Assembly (NCBI RefSeq): GCF_021117405.1
Contig: NZ_CP088251.1
Span: 1,984,001 to 2,048,000, forward strand
Reading direction: 5' to 3'
DNA length: 64,000 nucleotides
Source: Frateuria edaphi
GTDB lineage: Bacteria > Pseudomonadota > Gammaproteobacteria > Xanthomonadales > Rhodanobacteraceae
Part shown: in pieces, positions 49,301 through 54,855 of the stretch
How positions within the stretch are numbered: position 1 is the first letter of the stretch
Layout: each line of letters begins with the position of its first letter
The notes under the pieces: generated by a model
Told to the model about the DNA's origin: nothing
Databases searched by the model: none
Seen by the model: only the letters and a program-made list of their open reading frames with translations
Made by a program: the position numbers and the translations under genes

Positions 49301-49381
49301 TGGTCAGAATCAACTTTAAAAGTGCACTCTGACCCCAGCCTCAGTCATGCCCGCTCTTAATAAAAAGGGATCTGACCCCGT
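49301..49381. repeat. REP-like inverted repeat, family B, copy 1 plus half copy
   Basis: TGGTCAGAATCAACTTT (49301-49317) faces AAAAGTGCACTCTGACCC (49318-49335), imperfectly palindromic. A second half element (AAAAAGGGATCTGACCCC) follows at about 49363-49379, before the DUF922 gene end. Confidence 0.65.
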
Positions 49382-50576: not shown

Positions 50577-51407
50577 TTACTTCAGTTCTGCAGCTGCGGG
50601 CACGGAGGCTGGCTTCGCGGGCTGCATGTCCCCCGAAGCATACTGTCCGACCTGCAGGGTAAACCGTGCTTTTTGTCCGGACGGAATCGCCGCTGGATCG
50701 ACGTACACCTGAATCTCGTAATTCGTCGCTCCCGCAACCGATTCGGACCAGGTGTTCGCTCCGGTCGTGCTCGTGTCGACCAGCTTTTTGTCATGGGTCT
50801 GGTCGGTCACTCTGAAGTGCAATTCGGGATTGCCCGAGACGAGATTGACCTTGACTGTCATGCCGGCCGCGATGGCAACGGTGAAGTTGTAGACAGGAGC
50901 CCCGGAATCCAGCACCCCATCCCGCTGCGCCCATGGCTTGCCAGCTTCGAACGTCACTGCGGTCGCCGGCGATTGCATGTCTTCGGCTCCGTATTGCCCG
51001 ATCTGCAGCGCGAATTTCGCGCTTTCGCCGGATTTGATCGCGGCAGAATCGATATAGACCCGGATCGCATACGTGGTGGCCGTCGGGTTCGGTGTTGACC
51101 AGGTGGACTCGCCTGTCTTGCCGGTATCCAGCACCACCTTGTCCTGGCTCTGATCCTTCACCTTGAAAAACACGTTGGGATTACGGCTCAGGAGGTTGAG
51201 CTGCAACGTCTTGCCCGCCGCGACCGCAACCGTGTAATCAAGCGAGTCGTCGGAATGGGTGAGGTTGCCAACTTCCTGCGCCCAGACGCTGTTTGCCGGG
51301 AAGGTGACTGCGGTGGGCATATCGGCGAGTGCAGGCAGCGACATGCAGGCAGCGGCCAGGCCGACACTCACGAATAGAGCGCGGCGGAGAAGGTAGAAAC
51401 GTGGCAT
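50577..51407 (-). CDS. Secreted protein with two tandem PPC-like beta domains
   Basis: The product is 276 aa with GGGGAA 6 bases before the ATG and a signal peptide (RRALFVSVGLAAACMSLPAL). Two homologous domains follow (about residues 30-145 and 146-260), each beginning TAVTF..., with VAxAAGxTLxLNLLSxNPxxFFxVxDQ-type strands and ending LQ-GQYG/ASGDMQ. The architecture is that of bacterial pre-peptidase C-terminal beta-sandwiches, without a protease. The function may be binding to sugars or the envelope. Confidence 0.7.
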   Translation of the reverse strand: MPRFYLLRRALFVSVGLAAACMSLPALADMPTAVTFPANSVWAQEVGNLTHSDDSLDYTVAVAAGKTLQLNLLSRNPNVFFKVKDQSQDKVVLDTGKTGESTWSTPNPTATTYAIRVYIDSAAIKSGESAKFALQIGQYGAEDMQSPATAVTFEAGKPWAQRDGVLDSGAPVYNFTVAIAAGMTVKVNLVSGNPELHFRVTDQTHDKKLVDTSTTGANTWSESVAGATNYEIQVYVDPAAIPSGQKARFTLQVGQYASGDMQPAKPASVPAAAELK

Positions 51408-51616
51408 GTAAAATTCCCCGTGGTTTGTATTTCGCTTTTGAACGTTCCGACGATCGCCGCCCGACATCGGCGCAGTTGCACCGGCGCAACCTTACTTGCC
51501 CATGACCATCCTCATCCCTGACCGGCGCCGTGCGCGACACCATACGCCTACTTCGTTCAACTCGCCATATCCATCAAAGACAAAATAAGGGGCTGCGACC
51601 CGATATTTTTAGACAA

Positions 51617-51666
51617 AAGGGTCAGGTTCGATTGCCGCCGCGGGAAAATGAACCTGACCCCTTTTT
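51617..51666. repeat. REP-like inverted repeat, family A, copy 5
   Basis: GGGTCAGGTTC (51619-51629) and GAACCTGACCC (51650-51660) pair perfectly, extended by ATT/AAT, around a CCGCCGCGGG loop, then a T-rich tail. It encodes the last 13 or so residues of the DUF4062 gene. Confidence 0.8.
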
Positions 51667-52716
51667 TCTTTTTGAAGACACCGCTTTCTCCCTGCCCCCT
51701 TCCTTTCGAATGGCCTGTATCTTTAAGAGCTGAGCCTCGCCCACGGTAGAAAGCTTCCAATAGGTCTTGCGATCAGAAACCGCTCTACGCTTTGTCCCTG
51801 GCACCATATAGCCCAGTGCGCGAAACTGGACCTTAATCGCATCGACGATAACGTGCGGCAGGATAACGGAGCCGAGATCTACCTTGTCTTCCTTATCTTC
51901 TTTCTGGAGCCGAGCTTCGGCAGCATGCGCAAAGCAAAGATGCAACTTTTCCACGAACTCTTCGTCAGAACATTCTGGAAGCAACGTTGGGCCGACATAT
52001 TTTAATATTTGATCCCAACAGAAGTTGACTCTGTGCCACTTCTTGGCCTGCTTGGACGTTTTAAAGTAAACGTCAGTCTCAAATTCATCCAAACCGGAGG
52101 ATAAATCGGCGACTGACATGTTGCTTTCTTCTAGCTTCCGGTTCAGCTGCGCCTCAAGCTCAGCGACCCTTGCTCTCAACATGGCCACTTCCACGCGGGA
52201 GTTCTCATCGGTGGCGTACGCACCAGGCACCCAGCCATCTGACGGATGAGTCTTTCGCAATGCCACGATAGAGCGAGATACTTTCCCGCCCAATTCATCA
52301 GGGGTGCACCAATATTTACAGTGATGAGCGGCCTCCACACGGGACCTAAAGGCCGCCAGGCGTTCTCTTCCTGCCTCTGATTGCTCAGACCTTTCTAAAG
52401 AGATAGCCCCGGGATTTCCATGTAAAAAGGCAACAATCGGCTTCCCGATCGATACAGCGTAATCATATTCTTTTTCGGTGTAGCTTAACCCGCTCATCTC
52501 GGTTGAACCATAACGACCGCCAACTACCAACAAGTAGTAATCTGAATCATCAATTACACCCTTAATCAAATCCCATGCACCTTCGCTGGTTGCTGGAAAG
52601 ATCTCCATCCCAGCTGGAAAGCAATCCAGCTCGAGCAAAGCTTGCACAACCTCTGCCCTCTCCTGCTTAAGATCGGAGAACGTGGACGATATGAAAACTT
52701 GATGTCGACGATCCAT
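51622..52716 (-). CDS. DUF4062 (TIR/SLOG-like) protein, candidate defence gene
   Basis: The product is 364 aa from the ATG at 52716. Residues 4-100 are a DUF4062 domain: VFISSTFSDLKQERAEVVQA, CFPAGMEIFPATSE, DDSDYYLLVVGGRYGSTEMS and SYTEKEYDYAVSIGKPIVAF. The family is distantly related to TIR and nucleotide-processing folds and is often fused to STAND ATPases in defence proteins. A coiled coil (VEVAMLRARVAELEAQLNRK) and a helical, winged-helix-like C-terminus follow. The last residues come from a REP-like repeat. Base composition is much lower in GC than the flanks. It lies downstream of an OLD-type nuclease gene. Confidence 0.85.
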   Translation of the reverse strand: MDRRHQVFISSTFSDLKQERAEVVQALLELDCFPAGMEIFPATSEGAWDLIKGVIDDSDYYLLVVGGRYGSTEMSGLSYTEKEYDYAVSIGKPIVAFLHGNPGAISLERSEQSEAGRERLAAFRSRVEAAHHCKYWCTPDELGGKVSRSIVALRKTHPSDGWVPGAYATDENSRVEVAMLRARVAELEAQLNRKLEESNMSVADLSSGLDEFETDVYFKTSKQAKKWHRVNFCWDQILKYVGPTLLPECSDEEFVEKLHLCFAHAAEARLQKEDKEDKVDLGSVILPHVIVDAIKVQFRALGYMVPGTKRRAVSDRKTYWKLSTVGEAQLLKIQAIRKEGGREKAVSSKRKKGSGSFSRGGNRT

Positions 52717-53019
52717 GGTTCCCACTCAACGAAAACGTTTATAAGAAAACCCGACACCAGAAAAGCTGGAGTAGTCAAGAACGACGGGAACGGGATCAGG
52801 TCCAGCTCTCGATTTCTAATAAGTGCGATAGGTGAACCCGCCTCTGCTCTGGCGTTAAAAAAAAGCTCTGACCCGGGTTATCCGACTCCGGTTAACCCAA
52901 TCAAAAAAAATTACGCCCACCCTGAAGGCGCCGGAGGCAATTATCCCACCTTAATTGCGTCCCTCTTTGTTGCGTTTCCCCCCATCCCTTGTTGCCAGTC
53001 TGATCGAGAAAGAGGTTAG
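52717..53019 (-). other. 303-bp gap in the AT-richer island
   Basis: It lies between the OLD-type gene and the DUF4062 gene. It contains a family B half element (AAAAGCTCTGACCC near 52860-52873) and A-rich stretches that may hold a promoter for the DUF4062 gene. No coding frame was recognised. Confidence 0.45.
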
Positions 53020-54855
53020 TCAATCTTCCTGCCCTACATTACCCTCGGCGGCAAAAATGTAGGATGTGATCGAGCCCAAGGTACCCTCAAGAAATGCGAA
53101 CCGTTGGCGGAACGAAGCTTCTGGCAAATTCGCAAGAAAACGTGCCATTGGCCGTTTGCCGTGCTGCGCAAACTCCTTCTTTACATATATGGACCAAGCG
53201 GGATTAAGGTGGTCGTCGAGCGCGGTCTGTCCGTCGATGATTCTGTTAGTAAGCGCCACAGGGACAACACTCGTCTTATCTCTATCAACCAAGTGTCCAC
53301 TCCGCTCAGCCCATTCCCAAGCGGGCTTATCGTATAGGGTTTCCAGTACAACGGGTATTCGGAAGCCAGCGTTTATAGCTGGCAAAATATGCGGCGGCGT
53401 TGGAAGCTTAAAACATTTTGCAGATTTTATGTTGTCCGGAACCTTGTTCCACTCTGTCGCCGCCACCCGTGCGTCCTCGTCCAAATCGAGCAATCCAGCC
53501 GCCTTGGGAATTTCAGGATCATGCTTTGCCTTGCTTCGCCAAGATCGGAGCATGTCGATCACATAGTTGATGCCAGCACTTTCCCTGGTTTCAACGTCAA
53601 CTTGTGCAGCATAGTCAGGAGCGAATACCTGAAGCGCCTTTTCAATGAGAATTTTGTCGGATGGGCCTTCCACAAATATTTTCCGCCTGCGAGCGGCAGC
53701 AAGCCTTTCGACTGAGGCCTTCGCCTTTTCTTGCCTGCGAACTCTGTCCTCTAAATCTGCGACCAGAGGGGAAAAGAGCGTCATAGTGCCCATCCGCTCA
53801 TCTAGATCGCTCAGTTCTGCTGCCTCCTTGGTCCCTTCTTCACCAACATCGCGGAACATGTGATGGATGTTGATCCAGTCATCATCCTCCTCCTGCTTGC
53901 GGTGTAGGTTGTAGAAAACCGGTGAGTGCGTGGTAAGAAAAACCTGCGAGATCCCCTCATCCAGAAAATCCAAGAACTGGTCAGCAAGTTCGACACAGCT
54001 CGCGAGTTCCAAGCTGTTTTCCGGCTCTTCGTATCCCCATATGAAGGTATGAGGTTGAGCGCCACGCCCTTGCAAACCACGTTTTTTGTCTGCCATGAAT
54101 TTTAGGATGAGAGGTATGTGTCGCGCCTTAACGCCGTCACCTCGTGCATCGAGAGAGATGCTGTCTGACTCACTCAAAAAATCAAGGCTTTCAAAAATAT
54201 GACTTAGATCCTTAGGTAACGCTAGGCGGGACTGAAATCCTAGCGATCTTGCGATCTGGTTAGTTAGGTCTTGCAGCTGAGTGGAAATCGAGCGCTCAAA
54301 GTCACGACTGGAGTTTCTGAACTGTCGGTCTGCAACTTCGGAAATTACGTTGTAAATGCTGGCCCGCAGCTCCGAAAAATATTCAGGATCTTTGATAGCA
54401 GGCACGTACACGTAATTTATATTTCGCAAGAGGCCGTGTACGTTAGACCGGTCAGGAATTTCGATTTCTTCGAACCCCACCCCTCCTCGGGGACCAGCGA
54501 CATCTCTCCTGCCCATATAGCTGCTATGAAATAGCCCATCCGAGCGCCAGCGCTTTTCCCAAACAACGTAATCACCATTCACGCGTCTGTAGCTTCCCGG
54601 CAAGTCGATCTCGAGCTTAATCGAAACCTCTCTAGCCCGACGGTTAGGCTTGTTATAGATATTGTGATCGGTGTCGAAGTTGAAACTGTCGAGCGCTCCG
54701 ATTCTCCCATTAAAAAACAAGTTGAGGGCGCGAAGTACATTCGACTTACCCGAATCGTTTTTACCTACTAAAACTGAAAGCGAGTTCGGCTTTAGTACGA
54801 GATTTCTTACTGATCGAAAATTTCGGATCTCGATGTTTCGTATGTACAAGGACAT
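53020..54855 (-). CDS. OLD-family ATPase/TOPRIM nuclease, candidate defence gene
   Basis: 611 aa from the ATG behind CAGGGAG. The N-terminal ABC/SMC-like ATPase has IEIRNFRSVRNLVLKPNSL, Walker A GKNDSGKSN (31-39), a central helical part, and Walker B with FIWGYEEPENSLE near residue 270 plus the histidine switch LTTHSP. The C-terminal TOPRIM domain has KIFVEGPSDKILIEKAL near residue 391 and GLLDLDED near 455, the acidic metal-binding set of OLD nucleases. Relatives (P2 Old, Gabija GajA, retron nucleases) act in phage exclusion. No GajB helicase is adjacent; the same-strand neighbour is the DUF4062 gene. Low-GC coding suggests acquisition. Confidence 0.88.
   Translation of the reverse strand: MSLYIRNIEIRNFRSVRNLVLKPNSLSVLVGKNDSGKSNVLRALNLFFNGRIGALDSFNFDTDHNIYNKPNRRAREVSIKLEIDLPGSYRRVNGDYVVWEKRWRSDGLFHSSYMGRRDVAGPRGGVGFEEIEIPDRSNVHGLLRNINYVYVPAIKDPEYFSELRASIYNVISEVADRQFRNSSRDFERSISTQLQDLTNQIARSLGFQSRLALPKDLSHIFESLDFLSESDSISLDARGDGVKARHIPLILKFMADKKRGLQGRGAQPHTFIWGYEEPENSLELASCVELADQFLDFLDEGISQVFLTTHSPVFYNLHRKQEEDDDWINIHHMFRDVGEEGTKEAAELSDLDERMGTMTLFSPLVADLEDRVRRQEKAKASVERLAAARRRKIFVEGPSDKILIEKALQVFAPDYAAQVDVETRESAGINYVIDMLRSWRSKAKHDPEIPKAAGLLDLDEDARVAATEWNKVPDNIKSAKCFKLPTPPHILPAINAGFRIPVVLETLYDKPAWEWAERSGHLVDRDKTSVVPVALTNRIIDGQTALDDHLNPAWSIYVKKEFAQHGKRPMARFLANLPEASFRQRFAFLEGTLGSITSYIFAAEGNVGQED

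Follow-up and report, generated by a model that had tools for sequence, protein, structure and literature searches.

We asked whether two adjacent genes in a low-GC island of Frateuria edaphi, one for an OLD-family protein and one for a DUF4062 protein, form a new two-gene anti-phage system, as had originally been predicted from the 64,000-nucleotide stretch of genome analysed here (the window). The results below favour another reading, to which we assign a probability of about 0.8: the two are independent, stand-alone anti-phage genes that were gained horizontally and lie in a variable slot behind hutU. Each protein is a fresh example of a known family. Since none of the other genomes examined carried the pair, the locus holds known kinds of gene side by side rather than a new two-gene system.

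Two intact genes in a low-GC island

Both reading frames were found intact at the positions that had been predicted. The OLD gene (53020-54855, minus strand) runs from an ATG at 54855 to a stop codon at 53020 and encodes 611 aa, and the DUF4062 gene (51622-52716, minus strand) runs from an ATG at 52716 to a stop codon at 51622 and encodes 364 aa. The island itself is real and forms a sharp trough in the GC profile, at about 50% versus 65%: the GC content of the two genes was 0.496 and 0.502, compared with 0.667 for hutU and a window mean of 0.653, and their GC3 was about 0.53 in both cases, compared with 0.91 for hutU. On the upstream side the OLD gene starts 61 bp past the end of hutU, and on the other side the predicted REP-like repeat was confirmed as a palindrome at 51615-51664. 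Pfam analysis agreed with the domain labels given earlier, detecting AAA_15 (6e-26) and a weak Toprim-like DUF3226 match in the OLD protein, and an N-terminal DUF4062 domain alone (1.3e-27) in the other.

The genes are separated by a 303 bp intergenic gap (52717-53019), which the original prediction had left unmentioned. A terminator scan placed a terminator-like site inside it (52931-52913, minus strand), with the number of such sites no higher than in shuffled sequence. Within the island, a crude scan found no sigma-70-like promoter and Rfam gave no match for a structured RNA. There was no tRNA in the window, so tRNA-linked integration is unsupported, and no close relative of the island was found on plasmids at the nucleotide level.

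Full-length homology of the DUF4062 protein to Swarozyc

The DUF4062 gene received no name from PADLOC (2023 library). When a profile (A1) made from seven full-length or nearly full-length DUF4062 homologues was compared with KpSwz (PDB 10wc, 11cq and 11cv), it matched with E=2.2e-106 over profile positions 2-346 of 349 and chain residues 3-324, and the window protein as a single sequence matched at 8e-55. KpSwz was not among the Foldseek or VIA-align matches, the structure library used (ending 8 April 2026) probably being too early. On this sequence evidence the gene product is homologous over its full length to Swarozyc (KpSwz), a one-gene anti-phage system that Osinski et al. reported in a preprint of May 2026 (PMC13174449). 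In KpSwz a TIR-like domain hydrolyses NAD+ with E97 as the catalytic residue, and a C-terminal auxiliary domain, the tip of whose hairpin contacts the phage portal, binds the portal protein that switches the NADase on (PMC13174449).

We then examined these parts in the window protein. Its predicted catalytic residue, Glu83 (52468-52470, minus strand), aligned to the Ala of the E97A construct 10wc, making it the equivalent of KpSwz E97, and all of 90 diverse homologues have Glu at this position. An AlphaFold2 model built with 90 sequences (mean pLDDT 89.8) contained a TIR-like domain of five strands and five helices in alternation (residues 1-158; 52243-52716, minus strand), which matched TIR and nucleoside deoxyribosyltransferase folds with Z scores of 11-13.6 in a fold search. 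It is followed in the model by a stalk helix (residues 171-198; 52123-52206, minus strand) corresponding to alpha-F of KpSwz (PMC13174449), and by the auxiliary domain (residues 211-334; 51715-52086, minus strand), in which a beta-hairpin (211-219/225-233), three helices, a wing and a last helix (H324-334) follow one another with high pLDDT. This layout of TIR-like domain, stalk, hairpin and HTH/winged region is the one reported for KpSwz (PMC13174449). The auxiliary domain was barely covered in the fold search, and its assignment comes from the sequence match to KpSwz and from secondary structure.

Conservation differed strongly between these parts. Across most of the TIR core (residues 9-90) the column entropy was 0.95 bits, rising to 3.14 in the hairpin and to 3.26 in the loop that comes after the first auxiliary helices. 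The window hairpin contains a Trp (KKWH), in a segment too variable for confident alignment with the W238/Y239 tip of KpSwz. Because that tip touches the portal in KpSwz, a fast-changing hairpin fits, and may be the expected outcome of, an arms race over portal recognition. A further 155 Swarozyc-type loci were collected from bacteria, archaea and viral contigs, giving a set of proteins that combine an invariant catalytic residue with a hypervariable recognition hairpin.

The OLD protein fits Class 1

The OLD protein consists of an N-terminal ABC ATPase and a C-terminal Toprim part in one chain. Its Walker A motif GKNDSGKSN (residues 31-39; 54739-54765, minus strand) occupies mostly invariant columns in alignments A2 and A4. 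Five residues of the Walker B segment IWGYEEPEN (residues 272-280; 54016-54042, minus strand), namely E276, E277, P278, E279 and N280, were invariant in both alignments. The same was true of the Toprim residues: the predicted metal-binding glutamate E396 in FVEGPSD (53668-53670, minus strand), the DxD residues D457 and D459 in LLDLDED (53479-53487, minus strand) and the C-terminal lysine K567 (53155-53157, minus strand). His310 is also present and conserved among relatives. With a model of this protein (pLDDT 78.5), Foldseek retrieved GajA (2.5e-18), the OLD protein of retron Eco8 (6e-15) and TsOLD 6p74 (2.7e-13). The subfamily is rare: of 369 genomes of the class, two had a member at E<=1e-60, one of them being the genome that contains the window.

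Under the published class scheme, a stand-alone gene of ABC ATPase/Toprim build belongs to Class 1 (PMC10568477, PMC12796447), and the sequence of the window protein fits this class. Within Class 1, P2 Old and the YbjD protein of E. coli have anti-phage phenotypes (PMC13261556); some OLD-family proteins, archaeal Cran1 being an example, lack a defence role (PMC12796447). We also considered that the protein might be of a multi-component type, that is Class 2 (Gabija), Class 3 (retron) or Class 4 (PARIS), with a partner that had been missed. The best PADLOC match was AriA (1e-27), many GajA models also scored, and a homologue on the Aminobacter plasmid pAM01 lies directly downstream of a Gabija pair. 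However, no helicase, reverse transcriptase or split Toprim gene adjoins the OLD gene in the window, in agreement with the earlier remark that GajB is absent, as no helicase ORF occurs in the flanks; Toprim and ATPase form a single chain, unlike the Class 4 split; and the Gabija system at the Aminobacter locus already has its own GajA. A missed partner is thus very unlikely. The neighbours of the OLD gene here are hutU and the Swarozyc gene, and among its relatives the neighbours vary; another relative adjoins RmrA and a cytosine methyltransferase.

A REP-like palindrome forms the end of the Swarozyc gene

The REP-like palindrome GGGTCAGGTTC...GAACCTGACCC, with 22-nt arms (51615-51664), overlaps the 3′ end of the DUF4062 gene. 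The frame enters the palindrome and stops there, so that the stop codon and roughly 13 terminal residues are encoded by the palindrome and are REP-derived. Pattern searches of the genome found this exact palindrome type in two places only, the window and one other, indicating a low-copy element. The second cluster lies near 3.04 Mb (genome 3042628-3042775), and REP-like half sites occur at window positions 49329, 50489 and 52867, the last within the intergenic gap.

A REP-like element in place of the natural tail could affect the activity of the protein. This raised the question of whether the island holds degraded or silent cargo, acquired defence genes in decay, with the natural end of the Swarozyc gene lost to the insertion. 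The origin of the final 13 or so residues and the lack of a sigma-70-like promoter in the island speak for decay, the latter coming from a crude scan. Both frames, however, are open over their full length with all catalytic residues present. In the AlphaFold2 model the tail (residues 342-364) is disordered, with pLDDT of 51-56, and tails beyond residue 338 vary from 0 to 36 aa among homologues, suggesting that its replacement may be harmless. We therefore regard decay as unlikely, and both proteins are presumably expressed in this strain.

The two genes are not a conserved pair

The original prediction had the two genes working together, with the OLD protein as sensor or nuclease and the DUF4062 protein as effector or partner. 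Common strand, a common low-GC island and similar GC3 would agree with one functional module in which OLD senses or cuts and DUF4062 executes. When loci from genome, viral and plasmid sources were compared, most with flanks of up to 8 kb, the other family was found at none of 161 other DUF4062 loci and at none of 30 other OLD loci, and 12 further loci with 1.5 kb flanks likewise had no case of both together. Among 299 genomes of the order, the two families occurred in different genomes: G115 and G215 have full-length DUF4062 relatives, and G009 and G279 have good relatives of the OLD protein. In addition, 303 bp separates the genes, and each family is known as a single gene, KpSwz working alone (PMC13174449). 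The homologue search thus showed that the two are not neighbours in the other genomes examined, and a conserved OLD-DUF4062 system was rejected. A Swarozyc protein has its own sensor and effector, so pairing with OLD in these roles is not needed, and we consider the single-module explanation extremely improbable. Least likely of all is that the two act together in this strain, with, for example, NAD+ or ATP loss caused by one freeing the nuclease of the other. The DUF4062 gene by itself also matches the single-gene system Swarozyc. A role in phage defence is supported as probable for each gene separately.

Some relatives adjoin the portal gene in P2-like prophages

We found no conserved neighbour of the DUF4062 family, prophage structural genes excepted. 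Clustering gave terminase or portal neighbours at 11-13 loci. On contig L184, from a P2-like prophage, gpA (phrog_91, E 1e-290) and the portal gene gpQ (phrog_68) stand on either side of the DUF4062 gene, which adjoins the terminase, and at two loci (L258 and L259) an OLD relative sits beside gpQ in the corresponding place. The gpA-gpQ region of P2-like prophages is an anti-phage hotspot and contains old and tin in P2 (PMC9122126). The two families are thus each found next to the portal gene in these prophages, independently of one another. Swarozyc-type genes adjoin gpQ at L184 (8001-9035), L126 and L223. With the portal as the reported Swarozyc trigger, the sensor gene in such prophages directly adjoins a portal gene, and presumably the prophage must avoid triggering its own copy.

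Other surroundings were also seen. One Swarozyc homologue (L093 7029-8069, in G115) lies between repeated GNAT acetyltransferase fragments. On the A. junii plasmid pAJ_068-3 (L026 4684-6855), an HTH gene, a type VI retron reverse transcriptase and a DUF4062 gene stand in a row; after the DUF4062 gene comes an ISNCY transposase, and beyond that an MspI restriction system. The adjacent reverse transcriptase made DUF4062 a candidate retron effector; none of the other DUF4062 loci collected has a related reverse transcriptase, and this reading was rejected.

The slot behind hutU is variable

To learn about the site itself, we compared the three congeners whose assemblies extend past hutU (G184, G299 and G022), and the DNA after hutU was different in each. 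G184 carries a type I restriction system (hsdR, hsdM and hsdS), and G299 a low-GC cassette of nucleotidyltransferase-like, GmrSD_N and unknown genes. In this cassette (L091 2363-5382) the nucleotidyltransferase-like ORF was recognised by eye, with no Pfam match, the second protein is GmrSD_N/NsnA-like, and the third, of 423 aa, had no Pfam or PADLOC match; the three genes are possibly an uncharacterised defence operon. G022 has a low-GC GGDEF gene, which is not a known defence gene. The 752 aa protein (L089 6181-8439) combines GGDEF with a long C-terminal part lacking a Pfam match, and a small lipoprotein-like ORF is also present. The gene on the far flank of the island (window 50577-51467) is conserved in G022, indicating that the site is the same and that the cargo differs, and the GGDEF gene indicates that the slot is not exclusively defensive. 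The hutU slot is thus variable, often but not always defensive, and the other cargo behind hutU supports the earlier view of the island as a likely defence slot.

Proposed mode of action

Both genes are probably abortive-infection cargo, independent of one another. By analogy with KpSwz, the TIR-like NADase encoded by the distal gene would be held inactive at rest, and sensing of a phage portal would lead to destruction of NAD+. In the protein encoded by the proximal gene, the ABC ATPase would sense a disturbance made by the phage and control the metal-dependent Toprim nuclease, which would then cut host or phage nucleic acid. As a more tentative idea, doubtful at present, the Swarozyc hairpin may be the determinant of portal specificity, its tips being swapped over a constant NADase core as portals change, while the portals of prophages bearing the gene escape their own copy. 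The analysis removes a false lead, the new two-gene system, and offers two specific, testable single-gene assignments instead.

Comparison with known systems

PARIS (AriA/AriB) shares the AAA_15 ATPase with the OLD protein, and the AriA model had the top PADLOC score, but PARIS has ATPase and Toprim in separate adjacent genes or in a longer fusion, whereas the window has one 611 aa chain. Gabija GajA has the same ABC ATPase/Toprim architecture and was the best structural match; the window OLD gene differs in having no GajB (UvrD-like helicase) in its flanks. Agreement was closer with Class 1 OLD proteins (P2 Old, T. scotoductus OLD 6P74 and E. coli YbjD/OldB), which are likewise products of single genes and combine an ABC ATPase with a Toprim part within the same chain. 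The Walker and Toprim residues are intact in the window protein, and relatives adjoin gpQ in P2-like prophages, the region of P2 old and tin. It differs from them in showing 18% identity to TsOLD in the fold alignment and in belonging to a separate subfamily (about 28-64% identity).

The DUF4062 protein shares with Swarozyc full-length homology, the TIR-like domain with its catalytic Glu, the stalk helix, an HTH/winged auxiliary domain bearing a beta-hairpin, and the single-gene arrangement. Two differences were found, the REP-derived C-terminal tail of the window protein and the hairpin sequence, SKQAKKWHR in the window protein compared with GWYDEDREEH in KpSwz. The latter makes a different portal likely, and the weak sequence conservation of the auxiliary domain suggests that the trigger may be the portal of some other phage, or something other than a portal.
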